A DNA stretch of 35,409 nt. Source: a bacterium (GTDB lineage: Bacteria; Myxococcota_A; UBA9160; SZUA-336). The position numbers and the translations under genes were made by a program. Where the stretch lies: contig JAAELY010000478.1 in the NCBI GenBank assembly GCA_024226335.1, forward strand, positions 1 to 35,409, written 5' to 3'. Below are positions 16,999 through 35,360 of this stretch, one piece after another. Under the pieces are notes generated by a model that was given only the letters and a program-made list of their open reading frames with translations, made no database searches and was not told the origin of the DNA. Positions within the stretch are counted from its first letter, which is position 1; each line of letters starts with the position of its first letter.

Positions 16999-17679
16999 TC
17001 AGTCGCCGCCAGATTCAGGCTGACTGTGTCCGATGTGGTTTGCCAGGACGTGAACCAGCCAGCTGCGAAAACGCTCCGGCATCGCAGCGCGGTTTTCGGG
17101 ATCGACGCTCCGATCGACGATCTCACCGACGACCGCATCTCCCAGTAGCGCAGTCGCCCCCAGGCGGACCACGAAATAGCTGTCCTCGAAGGTCGGCGCA
17201 GGCGAATCGTTCTCGGCAGCCCACTCGCTGCGGCGACGGTGCACGGCCTCGGTCACGTGGCGCAGCATGCTCTGTTCCACGGCCTCTGCTTGGTGCACAT
17301 CGGCTTGCATGGCCCGCCAGGCCAGAAGACGCGCATGCCCTGTACTGCCGAACTCCGAAAAGATTCGCTCGCAGATCCCGAGCACCGACTCTTCGGACTC
17401 GGTGCTCTCGAGGGCCGAGAGCAGATCCCGGTCCAGGTCTGCGATGGCTCGCGCGGCCAGAGCCTGGGTCAACCCATCGCGACTGCCGAAGTGGTGAAGA
17501 ATCGTGGGGTGGGAGATACCGGCGGCTTTCGCGATGTCCTGCAAGCGGACAGCCTCGGGTCCCCCCTCAGCCAGGCGCTCTTCCGCGGCGTCGAGGATGG
17601 CGGACTTGGCCTCTTCGGCGGTCCGGCGGCGCCTCGGGCCTGCGGAATCCGAGGTTCTTGTGCTCGTCTTGGGGCTCAT
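16999..17679 (-). CDS. TetR family transcriptional regulator
   Basis: A 226-residue TetR-type repressor. I start it at ATG 17679 (MSPKTSTRTSDSAG), although the frame is open to 17895, because the DNA-binding domain then sits at the usual place: RRRTAEEAKSAILDAAEERL at 17-36 and the helix-turn-helix LQDIAKAAGISHPTILHHF at about 46-64, followed by GSRDGL. The C-terminal ligand domain has no family-level signature I can name. A 35 bp palindrome ends 9 bases upstream of this start and is the obvious autoregulatory operator. Its target may also include the divergent short ORF. Ligand unknown. Confidence 0.92.
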   Translation of the reverse strand: MSPKTSTRTSDSAGPRRRRTAEEAKSAILDAAEERLAEGGPEAVRLQDIAKAAGISHPTILHHFGSRDGLTQALAARAIADLDRDLLSALESTESEESVLGICERIFSEFGSTGHARLLAWRAMQADVHQAEAVEQSMLRHVTEAVHRRRSEWAAENDSPAPTFEDSYFVVRLGATALLGDAVVGEIVDRSVDPENRAAMPERFRSWLVHVLANHIGHSQPESGGD

Positions 17680-17687
17680 TTTGAGAT

Positions 17688-17722
17688 TGACATTTCTGTA
17701 GATACTATATACAAATCTGTCA
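17688..17722. promoter_or_regulatory. 35 bp imperfect palindrome, TetR operator candidate
   Basis: The arms read TGACAnnTnTGTAnATA and its reverse complement around a central base at 17705, with 13 of 17 positions matching on each side. It lies between the TetR start codon (17679) and the divergent short ORF, in an AT-rich patch unlike the surrounding GC-rich DNA, as expected for an overlapping promoter and operator. The size is long for a single TetR dimer and would suit two dimers bound side by side, as with QacR. Repressor identity is inferred from position only. Confidence 0.7.
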
Positions 17723-17808: not shown

Positions 17809-17979
17809 ATGGCACAAGAGAATCGAGTCGAGTCCGTCTTCCAGTGCATGTTCGCCGAGGAACGCGTCCACTCGGCCCCCCCCCTGACCGTGCACGACGA
17901 AATCCAGCGGCTGTCTCGTATCCGTCTTCCCTTCAGATACGAGTCCGTCGATACGGCGCTGGCATCCGCGACTCCCTAA
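17809..17979 (+). CDS. Possible 56-residue protein divergent from TetR gene
   Basis: A plus-strand ORF from ATG 17809 to TAA 17979. It starts MAQENRVESVFQCMF and ends YESVDTALASATP; the composition (acidic and basic residues mixed, few Gly/Arg runs) looks more like a real protein than neighbouring chance frames. GGGAAG lies a few bases upstream as a weak ribosome site. I do not recognise a family; it might be the surviving N-terminus of a longer gene. Its position downstream of the candidate TetR operator makes it a possible repressor target. Confidence 0.4.
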   Translation: MAQENRVESVFQCMFAEERVHSAPPLTVHDEIQRLSRIRLPFRYESVDTALASATP

Positions 17980-18025
17980 GTCGTCCCTGATTCCCTCCTG
18001 TCGAGGACTGCCAGCGCCGTGATAT

Positions 18026-18083
18026 TCTCGTGAGGTAGCAACGCCATCCGCGGATCAGCGGGTGGCGTTGCTACCTCACGAGA
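18026..18083. repeat. Long perfect hairpin, 26 bp stem
   Basis: Bases 18026-18046 pair perfectly with 18063-18083 (21 bp). The stem continues through one T-G wobble (18047/18062) and four more G-C pairs to a six-base loop, GGATCA, at 18052-18057. There is no T tract on either side, so it is not a standard terminator. It lies between the 56-codon ORF and the sirtuin gene. It could be a small mobile inverted-repeat element, a bidirectional Rho-blocking or mRNA-stabilising hairpin, or the target of a specialised nuclease or transposase. No second copy was seen in this window. Confidence 0.85.
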
Positions 18084-18086
18084 CGG

Positions 18087-18100
18087 AATTCGCGCGAATT
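18087..18100. promoter_or_regulatory. 14 bp perfect palindrome before sirtuin gene
   Basis: AATTCGCGCGAATT is self-complementary. It starts 4 bases after the long hairpin and ends 55 bases before the sirtuin start codon. Its placement suits an operator for the sirtuin gene; the regulator is unknown. Confidence 0.35.
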
Positions 18101-18155
18101 TGGCGTCGCCCCCGGAAGACGACGTACTGTCGCGCACCGAACCTGAGCAGAGGCG

Positions 18156-18920
18156 ATGAACCCCGAGCAGACACAGGCCGTGCAAGTCTTACGCGCTTGG
18201 ATCGACGAAGCGCAGTCCGTCACGGTGTTGACCGGCGCGGGCATCTCGACCGATTCGGGCATTCCCGATTTCCGCGGCCCGCAAGGTCTTTGGACCAAGA
18301 ATCCGCAAGCCGAAAAAATGGCCACGCTTTCGCACTATATGTCGGATCCCGAAGTGCGCGAACGCGCCTGGCAGAGCCGGATCCAGATGGTCGGAACCGA
18401 ACGCCAGCCCAATTCCGGGCATTACGCCCTGGTCGAACTCGAGCGTCGCGGAAAGCTGAAGACACTCATCACGCAGAATGTCGACGGACTGCATCGGGCG
18501 GCTGGAAGCTCCCCGTCGATCTTGGTGGAGATTCACGGAACGGTTCGCGAGGTCACGTGCATGAGTTGCGGCGAACGCAGACCCATGCAATATGCGCTCG
18601 ACCGGGTGCGCGAGGGCGAGAAGGACCCGCCTTGCAGCAACTGCGGAGGCATTCTGAAATCCGCCACGATCTCGTTCGGACAGGGATTGGTGCAAGAGGA
18701 TCTGCTGCGCTCCGAAGAAGCCGCGAAGTCATGTGATCTGATCCTGGCAATAGGCACGACACTTGGCGTCTACCCGATCGCAGCCGTCGTGCCGATTGCA
18801 AAGAACTCGGGTGCTCGTGTGGTGATCGTGAACGGAGAAGCCACAGAGATGGATGAACTGGCCGATGCGCTGATCCGGGGTTCGATCGGCGAAGTTCTGC
18901 CGAGTATCTGTTCGGCTTGA
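18156..18920 (+). CDS. Sirtuin, NAD-dependent protein deacylase (CobB-type)
   Basis: A 254-residue SIR2-family enzyme that removes acyl groups from lysine using NAD+. The NAD site is TGAGISTDSGIPDFRG (26-41); ITQNVDGLH (105-113) and the catalytic His127 in VEIHGTV follow. The zinc knuckle has Cys135, Cys138, Cys160 and Cys163. SFGQGL replaces the commoner FGE.L. A C-terminal GTTLGVYPIAAVVP completes the Rossmann core. The Ala/Tyr-Arg pair that marks desuccinylases is not evident. AGAGG precedes the ATG. The gap to the DUF3604 gene is 46 bases, so the two may be cotranscribed. Confidence 0.94.
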   Translation: MNPEQTQAVQVLRAWIDEAQSVTVLTGAGISTDSGIPDFRGPQGLWTKNPQAEKMATLSHYMSDPEVRERAWQSRIQMVGTERQPNSGHYALVELERRGKLKTLITQNVDGLHRAAGSSPSILVEIHGTVREVTCMSCGERRPMQYALDRVREGEKDPPCSNCGGILKSATISFGQGLVQEDLLRSEEAAKSCDLILAIGTTLGVYPIAAVVPIAKNSGARVVIVNGEATEMDELADALIRGSIGEVLPSICSA

Positions 18921-30068: not shown

Positions 30069-30566
30069 ATGCAGCTTTCAGCACAAGAAGAGTACGGGCT
30101 CCGCTGCCTGGTCCAGGTCGCCCGACAGGGCGATGGTGATCCGCTTTCGATCCACACGATCTCCGAGTGCGAGGGCCTGAGCCCGGAGTACGGAGCGAAG
30201 TTGATGAGGGCCCTGCGCCAGGCTTCCCTGGTCGTCAGCATTCGCGGCGCCGCGGGTGGCTACCTTCTCGCCCGGCCCCCCGAAGCCATCGACGTCTGGC
30301 AGGTGATCCAGGCTCTCGGCGGTTCGTTTTTTCCCGATGGTTTCTGCGACACACATCCGGGACAACTGCGCGACTGCGTCCATTCCCTGGACTGCTCGAT
30401 CCGCGGACTCTGGCACAAGGTAGAGATTGCCGTACGTGAGGTTCTCGAACAGGTGACGCTCGCTGATCTGCTGCGCAACGAGAACTCGCTGCTGACGCTG
30501 CTCGAACCCCCGGCGATTGACGGAGATTCGCAGCCCGCGGGCGGGAACGAAAAGGATCCCAGATGA
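30069..30566 (+). CDS. Rrf2 family Fe-S-sensing regulator of the SUF operon
   Basis: A 165-residue Rrf2-type winged-helix regulator. The DNA-binding part is residues 1-70 ([38 protein letters not shown], wing [13 protein letters not shown]). Three Cys lie in the sensor segment, Cys93, Cys103 and Cys109, the arrangement that binds an Fe-S cluster in IscR-like proteins (there spaced about six apart; here 10 and 6). It heads the suf genes and its stop overlaps sufB by 4 bases, so it most likely senses cluster status and represses its own operon, in the manner of SufR or IscR. Confidence 0.93.
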
Positions 30567-32011
30567 GCAGCTCACGCGACCTGGAAGCGCTCACCAATCG
30601 CGAGTACGAACACGGTTTCGTTACGGATATCGATTCGGAAAAACTCCCACCGGGCCTCGACGAAGACGTCATCCGCGAGATTTCGGCCAAGAAGGAGGAA
30701 CCCGAGTGGTTGCTCGATTGGCGATTGAAGGCTTTTCGGCGCTGGCTGCAGCTGCGCGAAGAAGACGCACGCTGGGCTAATGTCAGTTTTCCTCCCATCG
30801 ACTACCAGGCCATCAGCTACTACTCCGCACCCAAACCGAAGAAGCAGCTCGAAAGCATGGATGAGGTCGATCCCGAGCTGCGCGCAACTTTCGAGAAGCT
30901 GGGCATTCCGCTACACGAACAGAAGGTGCTCTCAGGTGTCGCCGTCGATGCCGTGTTCGACAGTGTGTCGGTCGCAACCACCTTCAAGAAGCGGCTGGGC
31001 GAGCTCGGAATCGTGTTCTGCCCGTTTTCTGAAGCGGTCAAGGAACATCCAGAACTCATTCGGAAGTACCTTGGCTCGGTCGTTCCCTATTCAGACAATT
31101 TTTTCGCGACACTGAACTCCGCGGTCTTTACGGACGGTTCTTTCGTGTACATCCCCGAGGGTGTCCGATGTCCGATGGAACTATCGACGTACTTTCGGAT
31201 CAACGAGGCAAACACCGGGCAATTCGAGCGAACTCTGATCGTGGCCGACCGCGGCTCGTACGTGAGTTACCTGGAAGGCTGTACCGCCCCGATGCGCGAT
31301 GAGAATCAATTGCACGCAGCTGTGGTAGAACTCGTCGCGCTGGACGATGCGCAGATCAAATACTCCACGGTCCAGAACTGGTACCCCGGCGACAAGAACG
31401 GCAAAGGCGGTATCTACAACTTCGTGACCAAGCGGGGAGCGTGCAGAGGTCGCAACTCGAAGATCTCCTGGACCCAGGTCGAGACGGGATCCGCGATCAC
31501 CTGGAAATACCCGAGCTGCCTTCTGCAGGGCGACAATAGTGTCGGCGAGTTCTACTCGGTGGCCGTCACTAACAACTGCCAACAGGCCGATACGGGCACG
31601 AAGATGATCCACCTGGGCAAGAACACCAGTAGCACCATCATCTCCAAGGGAATCTCGGCCGGACGCGGGCAACAGACGTACCGAGGCCTGGTGAAGGTTC
31701 ACCAGAAGGCGAAGAACGCCCGCAACTTTACTCAGTGCGACTCGCTTCTGATCGGTAGCCGCTGTGGAGCCCACACCTTTCCCTATATCGACGTACACAA
31801 CGCATCGTCGACCGTAGAACACGAAGCAACGACATCGAAGATCAGCGAAGACCAGCTCTTTTACTGTCGTCAGCGCGGCATCGACACCGAAGGTGCGATT
31901 TCGATGCTGGTCAACGGATTCTGTAAAGAGGTGTTTCGCGAACTGCCCATGGAGTTCGCAGTCGAAGCATCGAAGTTGCTCGAAGTCACTCTCGAAGGCG
32001 CGGTTGGCTAG
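30563..32011 (+). CDS. sufB: SufB, Fe-S scaffold subunit
   Basis: A 482-residue SufB. It forms the SufBC2D scaffold complex on which Fe-S clusters are built. Near-invariant segments are [60 protein letters not shown] and [20 protein letters not shown]; the Cys of SRCGAH region and the Glu of VEHEATTS match the residues implicated in sulfur acceptance and cluster assembly in E. coli. Length is normal. Its ATG overlaps the regulator stop (ATGA) and sufC follows 12 bases later with AGGAGA before it. Confidence 0.98.
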
Positions 32012-32023
32012 GAGACAGAGAAC

Positions 32024-32794
32024 ATGGCACTGCTCGAAATCCGCGACTTGCACGCCAGCGTCGAAGACAAACCGATTCTCAAAGGGATCGATCTAGACGT
32101 CGAGGCGGGTAAGATCCACGCCATCATGGGCCCAAACGGCTCCGGCAAGAGCACTCTGGCAAATGTGCTGGCGGGCCGAGATGGTTACGAAGTCACCCGT
32201 GGCTCCGTGCTCTTCAAGGGCAAAAGCCTGCTTGACCTGGAACCAGAGGAGCGAGCACGCGAGGGGGTATTCCTGGCCTTTCAATACCCGGTAGAGATTC
32301 CTGGCGTGACGAATTCCTACTTCATGAAGGCGACGCTCAACGCGATCCGAAAACACCGCGGCGAACCCGAACTTGACGCGATGGATTTCCTGACGCTGGT
32401 CAAGGGCAAGATGAAAGTGCTCGAAATGGACGAAGCGTTCCTGCACCGTTCCGTGAACGAGGGTTTCTCGGGTGGAGAAAAGAAGCGCAACGAAGTTCTG
32501 CAGATGGCGCTGCTCGAGCCCGCACTCGGGGTGCTGGATGAGACCGACTCGGGGCTCGATATCGACGCACTGCGAATCGTATCCACGGGCGTGAACGCTC
32601 TGCGCTCACCGGATCGCGGATTCCTCGTGATCACCCACTACCAGCGTCTGCTCGACCACCTGGTTCCCGATTACACACATGTACTGATGGACGGCCGCAT
32701 CGTAAAATCCGGCGATCGCAGCCTGGCTCTGGAGCTCGAGAAGAAAGGCTATAGCTGGATCGAAGAGGAAGTCGCAGCGGGCACGGCTTCATGA
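32024..32794 (+). CDS. sufC: SufC, SUF ATPase
   Basis: A 256-residue ABC-type ATPase that powers conformational change in the SufBC2D complex; it is soluble, not a transporter. Walker A GPNGSGKST is at 36-44, the signature region reads NEGFSGGEKKRNEVLQM, and Walker B with the catalytic Glu is GVLDETDSGLDIDAL. Q loop and H loop (VITHYQRLL) are present. KGMKVLEMD-like insert residues typical of SufC precede the signature. Its stop overlaps sufD by 4 bases. Confidence 0.98.
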   Translation: MALLEIRDLHASVEDKPILKGIDLDVEAGKIHAIMGPNGSGKSTLANVLAGRDGYEVTRGSVLFKGKSLLDLEPEERAREGVFLAFQYPVEIPGVTNSYFMKATLNAIRKHRGEPELDAMDFLTLVKGKMKVLEMDEAFLHRSVNEGFSGGEKKRNEVLQMALLEPALGVLDETDSGLDIDALRIVSTGVNALRSPDRGFLVITHYQRLLDHLVPDYTHVLMDGRIVKSGDRSLALELEKKGYSWIEEEVAAGTAS

Positions 32795-34113
32795 CGCAGG
32801 GCAAGGCATACGCAAGCCTTCTTCAGTTGTTTGAGGAGCGCAAGAAGGTCAACTCCCGAGGACCCGCCTGGCTGGAACAGTTGCGAGCCGAGGCGCGCAG
32901 TGCATTCGAGGAGTCTGGCCTGCCGACACCTCAGAGCGAAGATTGGCGGTTTACAGATCTGGCGAAACTCTCGGACCTGGAGCTGCACCCGGCGGAAGAA
33001 GCCCCGGTTCTGGCATCGGAATGGGTGGAGTCCACACGCAAGGCCGCGGGCCCCGAACACCGAGTCGTATTCGCCCAGGACGTCTTTCAAGCCGAACTCT
33101 CGAGGCTGGGAAATCTACCCGCCGGGGTCCGCGTAGCCTCACTCGCGAAAATACTTCGCGAAGAACCGGAACGACTCAAGGGCAGGCTGGGAACTCTGGC
33201 CGACTTGAAACGCACGCCGCTGAGCGCACTGAATACGGCGCTTTTCCGCGACGGCGTATTGATCGAGATTGCCGACGACGTGTCCGTCAGCGAAGCCATC
33301 CATCTGGTTTTCGTGCAGACCGGCGGCGATCGGCACCTGGCGATCCACCCGCGAGTTCTCGTGGTTGCGGGCGGTGGCTCACGCGCCACGGTCGTCGAAC
33401 ACTTCATCGGGGAGACACCGCACAACGGATTGACGAACCCGTTGACGGAACTCCTCGTGGGAGAGAACGCGCACATCGACCATGTTGCATTGCAGGAGCG
33501 GCGCACCGGAAGCTTCCACCTTGCGAATCTTTTCGCGAAGCAACAGGCGGGTAGCCGATTCGCCTCTCATTCGATAGCGATGGGAGAAGGCCTGTCGAGG
33601 CTGGAAATTCGCACTTCGCTCGAAGGCGAAGGTGCGCATGCACAACTCAATGGCTTGTACATGGCCCGGGATCGACAGCTCGTCGACCACCACACGACGA
33701 TCGACCACGCCACACCACACACGACCAGTAGTGAGTTGTACAAAGGCATTCTGGACGGTCGCGGGCGCGGTGTATTTCACGGACGCATTCACGTTCGACC
33801 AGATGCGCAAAAAGCCGACGCAGCCCAGACGAACAGGGCCCTGCTACTTTCGGACTCGGCGTCCCTCAACACCAAGCCCCAACTCGAGATCTACGCCGAC
33901 GACGTGAAATGCAGTCACGGAGCGAGTATCGGAGAACTCGATCCCGATCAGCTTTTCTACATGCGCTCACGCGGCATGAGTCTCGAAGATGCTCGGTCAG
34001 CTCTGACTTTCGCGTTCGCCAGTGACGTGATCAATGCGCTTCCACTCGAAGCACTGCGCAACTACCTGAAGTACTCCGTGCTCAAATGGCTGCCCCGGGG
34101 GACGCACGCATGA
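32791..34113 (+). CDS. sufD: SufD, scaffold partner of SufB
   Basis: A 440-residue SufD, the paralogue of SufB in the SufBC2D complex, needed for iron acquisition during assembly. The N-terminal helical part has TPQSEDWRFTDLAKL, and the beta-helix core ends with KPQLEIYADDVKCSHGASIG, DQLFYMRSRGMSLEDARSAL, the most conserved region of the family with the His used in cluster assembly. Length is normal. It starts at ATG within the sufC stop and its own stop overlaps sufS (ATGA at 34110), so sufBCDS is translationally coupled. Confidence 0.96.
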   Translation: MTQGKAYASLLQLFEERKKVNSRGPAWLEQLRAEARSAFEESGLPTPQSEDWRFTDLAKLSDLELHPAEEAPVLASEWVESTRKAAGPEHRVVFAQDVFQAELSRLGNLPAGVRVASLAKILREEPERLKGRLGTLADLKRTPLSALNTALFRDGVLIEIADDVSVSEAIHLVFVQTGGDRHLAIHPRVLVVAGGGSRATVVEHFIGETPHNGLTNPLTELLVGENAHIDHVALQERRTGSFHLANLFAKQQAGSRFASHSIAMGEGLSRLEIRTSLEGEGAHAQLNGLYMARDRQLVDHHTTIDHATPHTTSSELYKGILDGRGRGVFHGRIHVRPDAQKADAAQTNRALLLSDSASLNTKPQLEIYADDVKCSHGASIGELDPDQLFYMRSRGMSLEDARSALTFAFASDVINALPLEALRNYLKYSVLKWLPRGTHA

Positions 34114-35360
34114 GCCGAACGAAGGACCTGCGAGTTCCCTCAAAGCTCGACGTGGAAGCCGTGCGAAGGGATTTCCCTATTCTGGGCCGCGAAGTTCACG
34201 GGAAACCACTGGTCTACCTGGACAGTGCTGCATCCAGCCAGAAGCCGAACCAGGTGATCGACGCGATCAGTGATTACTATCGCAACTCGCATTCCAATGT
34301 GCACCGCGGTGTGCATGCTCTCGCCGAGGAAGCGACAAACGCGTACGAACTGGCCCGCACCAAGGTTCAGCGGTTTCTGCGGGCTGAGTCTGAGCGCGAA
34401 GTGGTTTTCGTACGAGGAACCACCGAAGCCCTGAATCTAGTCGCACAGGCGTATGCAAGACCGATGCTCACAGCCGGAGATGAAGTCCTGCTCACCGAGA
34501 TGGAGCATCACTCCAATATCGTCCCCTGGCAGATCGTATGTGAGCAAACCGGCGCAAAGCTGATCGTGGCACCGATAGATGATCGTGGACAGCTGATCAT
34601 CGAGGAATTCGAACGCCTTCTGAACTCACGTACGAAGATCGTGACACTGACGCATGTTTCGAATTCCCTGGGGACCGTGAATCCGCTCACTGAACTCATC
34701 GCCCTGGCGAAGGAGCGCGGTGCAACCGTCATCATCGATGGCGCCCAGGCAGTTCCGCATCTTGCAGTGGACGTCCGAAAGCTCGGTTGCGACTTCTACG
34801 CATTCTCGGGACACAAGATGTACGGCCCTACCGGTATCGGGGTGCTCTGGGGACGACGAGAATTGCTCGACGGAATGGAGCCGTACCAAAGCGGTGGCCA
34901 CATGATCGTGCAGGTGAGTTTCGAAGGCACCAGTTATGCAGCTTCTCCCAGTCGTTTTGAGGCAGGCACGCCCAATATCTCTGGAGCCGTCGGGCTGGGA
35001 GCAGCCATTGATTACCTCACGGACCTGGGTCTCGACGCGGTTGAAGCACACGAAAACGCGCTGCTTCAGTACGGGATTGAACGGCTCGAGACAATTCCGG
35101 AGATAAGGCTGATCGGACGGGCTGATCAGCACGCGGGAGTTCTCTCCTTCCTTGTAGGCGATATCCACGCACATGACGTCGGCACGATCGTCGATTCCGA
35201 AGGCGTTGCGGTTCGTGCTGGGCATCACTGTTCTCAGCCCGTCATGGACCATTTCAAGGTCGCCGCGACGTCTAGAGCCTCACTCGCGGTGCACAATGAT
35301 CGAGATGATATCGACCGATTGGTCGACGCCATCCAGCGAGTCTTGGAGATCTTCGGCTGA
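34110..35360 (+). CDS. sufS: SufS, cysteine desulfurase
   Basis: A 416-residue PLP-dependent group II cysteine desulfurase that supplies sulfur to the SUF scaffold. I start at ATG 34110 (MSRTKDLRV), which overlaps the sufD stop by 4 bases; an upstream ATG at 34086 lies inside sufD. Landmarks: NSHSNVHRGVHALAEEAT, RGTTEALNLVA, EMEHHSNIVPWQ, DGAQAVPHLAVDV, the PLP Lys in FSGHKMYGPTG, and the catalytic Cys in RAGHHCSQP. Length is normal for SufS. With sufU next, sulfur is expected to pass from this Cys to SufU. Confidence 0.97.
   Translation: MSRTKDLRVPSKLDVEAVRRDFPILGREVHGKPLVYLDSAASSQKPNQVIDAISDYYRNSHSNVHRGVHALAEEATNAYELARTKVQRFLRAESEREVVFVRGTTEALNLVAQAYARPMLTAGDEVLLTEMEHHSNIVPWQIVCEQTGAKLIVAPIDDRGQLIIEEFERLLNSRTKIVTLTHVSNSLGTVNPLTELIALAKERGATVIIDGAQAVPHLAVDVRKLGCDFYAFSGHKMYGPTGIGVLWGRRELLDGMEPYQSGGHMIVQVSFEGTSYAASPSRFEAGTPNISGAVGLGAAIDYLTDLGLDAVEAHENALLQYGIERLETIPEIRLIGRADQHAGVLSFLVGDIHAHDVGTIVDSEGVAVRAGHHCSQPVMDHFKVAATSRASLAVHNDRDDIDRLVDAIQRVLEIFG

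Follow-up and report, generated by a model that had tools for sequence, protein, structure and literature searches.

A canonical Rho-independent terminator forms a stable stem-loop in the transcript, with a T tract following the stem. The I-shaped terminator-like hairpins, which have no U tract, have been described from GC-rich bacteria (for example TtsaD of Mycobacterium tuberculosis, PMC5335608; hairpin clusters, PMC8355165). Hairpin clusters located within 80 nt of a stop codon, for which poly-U is not required, were reported as common (PMC8355165). In the alr-groEL1 operon of M. tuberculosis, a comparable U-less element cut downstream expression in vivo (PMC5335608). Whether U-less hairpins can bring about termination on their own is a matter of dispute (Czyz et al. 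2014, cited in PMC5335608).

The hairpin analyzed here, termed H3, is located upstream of a sirtuin gene in a window of 35,409 nucleotides, which is the whole stretch of DNA that was analyzed. Like the I-shaped hairpins, H3 is a stable, GC-rich and T-less stem-loop with a neighbouring hairpin (H2), and the stop of a candidate ORF is located less than 80 nt ahead of it. It differs from them in that its upstream gene is only a candidate, and its 26-bp stem is the longest among the short-loop hairpins sampled from the same genome (G000). With the canonical terminators H3 shares the stable transcript stem-loop, but there is no T tract beyond the stem on either strand, in agreement with an earlier note on this DNA.

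The hairpin and its genomic surroundings

H3 was identified at positions 18026-18083 of the + strand by reading of the sequence and by folding. Its 58 nt read directly as TCTCGTGAGGTAGCAACGCCA-T-CCGC, the loop GGATCA and GCGG-G-TGGCGTTGCTACCTCACGAGA, and the full arms are TCTCGTGAGGTAGCAACGCCATCCGC and GCGGGTGGCGTTGCTACCTCACGAGA. The stem is composed of 21 Watson-Crick pairs, one T.G pair (U.G in RNA) and four further Watson-Crick pairs around the 6-nt loop, exactly as the earlier note had described it. The + strand RNA was predicted to fold at -55.2 kcal/mol (z -12.8, reached by 0 of 200 shuffles), while the - strand RNA folded at -50.2 kcal/mol and the wobble became a C/A mismatch. The single irregularity of the stem therefore pairs in the + strand RNA only. 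H3 was the top-ranking inverted repeat of the whole window, and its hairpin score was 24.5, whereas three mononucleotide shuffles of a 0.92-Mb sample from the same genome peaked at 13-14. By both the score and the fold shuffles, H3 is real and far beyond chance, as had been claimed. An assembly artefact is unlikely, since H3 is a short palindrome in the middle of a 35-kb contig.

The gene downstream of H3 encodes a Sir2-family protein (sirtuin; 18156-18920, + strand; PF02146, E 5.1e-44) and starts 73 nt after the hairpin, so that both the coordinates of H3 and its site ahead of the sirtuin gene were given correctly in the earlier note. No separate sirtuin promoter was evident in 18084-18155. 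A divergent gene encoding a TetR-family regulator (16999-17679, - strand; PF00440, E 3.3e-14) starts about 350 bp from H3. Adjoining the tetR start, a possible promoter TTGACA-17 nt-TACAAA (17687-17715, + strand) was recognized by eye, and a weaker promoter-like match is located nearby (17681-17708). The possible promoter overlaps the palindrome TGTAGATACTATATACA (17697-17713), which is a plausible TetR operator as judged from its sequence, and 17687-17715 is possibly an autoregulated divergent promoter.

The stop of a candidate ORF of 56 codons (MAQENRVESVFQCMFAEERVHSAPPLTVHDEIQRLSRIRLPFRYESVDTALASATP; 17809-17979, + strand) is located 46 nt ahead of H3. Its codon-usage score was +7.7; among 1,205 shadow ORFs, whose median was -8.9, 3.7% scored as high. 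No homologue was found in the family or in 379 genomes of the phylum, and a Pfam search gave no match; the ORF could be a genuine gene specific to this lineage, or no gene at all. The region also contains two further + strand hairpins. H1 (CTCGTATC...GATACGAG, 17915-17943), a small hairpin found by sequence and folding, is located within the candidate ORF. H2 (17954-18019), which was found in both the MFE and centroid folds, is weaker than H3 and ends 6 nt ahead of it. The outer stem of H2 consists of 11 perfect pairs, CGGCGCTGGCA (17954-17964) with TGCCAGCGCCG (18009-18019), and encloses a loop of 44 nt with inner stems. For the 371-nt leader as a whole, folding predicted an unusual degree of structure (z -7.2). 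Elsewhere in the window, the translations of 30563-35360 were read by eye as an apparent sufB-sufC-sufD-sufS operon for iron-sulphur cluster assembly.

Hairpins at gene ends across the genome

Strong hairpins (score of at least 10, loop of at most 8) were surveyed in 921,607 bases (about 16%) of the genome, with H3 itself left out and the 3' zone defined as the 120 nt past gene 3' ends. Since the gene calls came from a home-made caller with a simple codon model, the densities obtained are indicative: 52 hairpins per 100 kb past 3' ends, 27 in overlapping 3'/5' flanks, 7 ahead of 5' ends, 5 in the remaining intergenic sequence and 4 within genes (3' versus 5' flanks, Fisher p=0.004). For 15 of the 20 surveyed hairpins outside genes, the 8 nt next to the stem contained fewer than 4 T on either strand. 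The T-less 3'-end type is seen cleanly between two convergent genes (L208 9439-9476), where a hairpin has a perfect 17-bp stem, a GAGA loop and no T tract. The T-tract terminator patterns within the window were no more frequent than in shuffles. Therefore, stable hairpins that are mostly T-less tend to mark gene ends in this genome.

The earlier note had taken the missing T tract to exclude a terminator. The absence of the tract stands, but the exclusion does not follow, because most strong 3'-flank hairpins in this genome are T-less as well. H3 would fit the class of gene-end hairpins provided that a short transcript, be it that of the small ORF or another one, really exists upstream. The reading we favour, with slightly less than even confidence, is that H3 is the 3'-end hairpin of a short + strand unit, acting as a U-less pause site, terminator or attenuator, or as a stabilizer. 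The enrichment of similar hairpins in 3' over 5' flanks and the T-less 3'-end examples from the same genome argue for this reading. The position of H3 after the stop of the small ORF, with H2 directly ahead of it, corresponds to the published hairpin-cluster pattern (PMC8355165). The coding score of the ORF, the structured leader and the pairing of the stem irregularity in the + strand RNA only are also consistent with a 3'-end hairpin. However, the small ORF is without homologues or a Pfam match and is equalled by some shadow ORFs. Without this ORF, H3 would be a 5'-leader hairpin, a class that is rare in this genome. In addition, H3 is unconserved, its stem exceeds those of all other sampled short-loop hairpins, U-less intrinsic termination is itself disputed (PMC5335608), and the survey covered about 16% of the genome, using a home-made gene caller.

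Copy number, conservation and a possible local inverted duplication

H3 is present once in its own genome (5.75 Mb, 556 contigs, 97% complete). The exact 16-base arm core occurred only in the two arms of H3, and near matches were at control level. The 90 further genomes searched from the class contained no copy, one 19-base match (G067) being at chance level, and none was found in phage and plasmid records. In IMG/VR the 16-mer was found in four contigs, each with a single arm and no inverted partner; one of them (L233) had 20 matching bases, and all four were judged to be chance matches. A search with the arm had been proposed in the earlier note, and this is its outcome.

The relatives available for comparison are rather distant: the family was represented by 11 genomes from 9 genera, with only one genome for the genus of H3 itself. 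A recognizable sirtuin gene is present in eight family relatives, and a hairpin comparable to H3 was absent upstream of the sirtuin at all eight loci. It was also absent upstream of the close sirtuins on two named Myxococcota contigs (L021, L049). The TetR homologues of the relatives were only 36-43% identical, and no comparable hairpin was found at their loci. Since the 90 further class genomes, none of them congeneric, yielded no H3 homologue, neither the conservation nor the compensatory changes typical of a conserved functional RNA were seen. H3 gave no match above the gathering score in Rfam 15. The DUF3800-IV RNA (24.7 bits, gathering 60.7) and mir-9456 (26.4 bits, gathering 80) share a long simple stem with H3, but their scores are far below gathering and were rejected as the chance matches that any long hairpin would give. 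A functional-RNA role of H3 is possible.

According to the earlier note, absence from close relatives together with the lack of other copies and of a transcript effect would point to a local inverted duplication without function. The first two of these were observed, the absence among rather distant relatives only, and absence from such relatives, none of them congeneric, does not prove a duplication. The note had also held that the near-perfect symmetry implies a hairpin that is recent or actively maintained. This is not forced, because template switching can create perfect stems in one event or repair them (PMC8794818), and the symmetry therefore needs no recent selection.

We regard as possible, but doubtful, that H3 is a functionless local inverted duplication, produced when replication switched templates within a tolerant intergenic stretch. 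Its single copy, a sequence common to nothing else, its absence in all compared relatives and its near-perfect arms, obtainable from one template-switching event (PMC8794818), would all be explained in this way. However, the strong hairpins of this genome are concentrated at gene 3' ends instead of being scattered at random, and the sole irregularity of H3 still pairs in the + strand RNA, although this is a single site.

Leader and operator alternatives

Duplexes longer than 20 bp are long enough for cleavage by RNase III. The 26-bp duplex of H3 could accordingly belong to the 5' leader of a sirtuin transcript under TetR control and serve there for processing or stabilization, setting the 5' end or the stability of the mRNA. 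We consider this unlikely: the location of H3 ahead of the sirtuin start codon, the lack of an evident separate sirtuin promoter and the possible upstream promoter are compatible with it, but the sirtuin leaders of the family relatives have no comparable hairpin.

It is very improbable that H3 acts as DNA, that is, as a palindromic operator or a cruciform for a dimeric regulator. Its intergenic position between divergent genes would suit this role, but H3 is far longer than ordinary operators and distant from the tetR start, and a palindrome of more typical TetR size is present at 17697-17713.

Mobile elements

The proposal of the earlier note that H3 may be a small REP/MITE-like mobile element did not survive and is highly improbable: H3 is a short intergenic palindrome as these elements are, with GTAG inside its arm, but it differs from them in its single copy in a 97% complete genome, in the lack of related copies in class genomes, phages and plasmids, and in its flanks (gtgatat / cggaatt), which by eye contain no direct repeats and no MITE target-site duplication. 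The many genomic copies of REP sequences and REPINs, and the multiple copies with terminal inverted repeats of MITEs, are not seen for H3.

The true multi-copy MITE-like family of this genome is a different sequence of 169 bp, which is unrelated to H3. Its copies are 97-99% identical and number at least 40, counted as main-orientation matches in one search; probably there are more, since only 40 of 137 candidates were scored in this first look. The inverted ends are about 24 bp long and begin with CTAG (CTAGGGAATCTCTGCACAGGGAGG). Copies were found at L164:19070-19238, C277:34891-35059 and C176:48507-48675, and a shortened copy of 104 bp at L169 9485-9588. Several copies are located at contig ends, where they probably break the assembly. 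Another hairpin with near-perfect arms of ~34 bp (AGTGTCCTGTTCCAGAAGTTCGCTGGCTATCC...) was observed at L184:3243-3326, at or just past the apparent end of a gene. It is repeated elsewhere, with partial copies in L210 12744-12905, and resembles the ends of an insertion sequence, or else a further small palindromic element.

Possible function as a 3'-end hairpin

If H3 is the 3'-end hairpin of a short unit, transcription of this unit would start at the putative TetR-controlled divergent promoter at about 17687-17715, and the RNA would carry the candidate 56-codon ORF and end at H2 and H3. At the U-less H3, the RNA polymerase would pause or be released, or the RNA would be trimmed back to the hairpin. 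H3 would thereby insulate or attenuate the sirtuin operon, which starts 73 nt further on, and protect the 3' end of the short RNA. The stem was probably weaker at first and may have been made near-perfect by template switching. A more far-reaching version, which we think very unlikely, is that the locus encodes a small RNA or a small-protein unit that is specific to the lineage and regulated by TetR, with H3 as an attenuator of the sirtuin operon that can be switched, and that the lineage largely uses U-less hairpins at transcript ends.

As one unconserved hairpin, H3 alone means little. The enrichment of T-less hairpins past gene ends in this genome provides a testable case for the disputed U-less transcript ends, and it comes from an uncultured lineage; Myxococcota MAGs are among the closest named relatives that were found for it.
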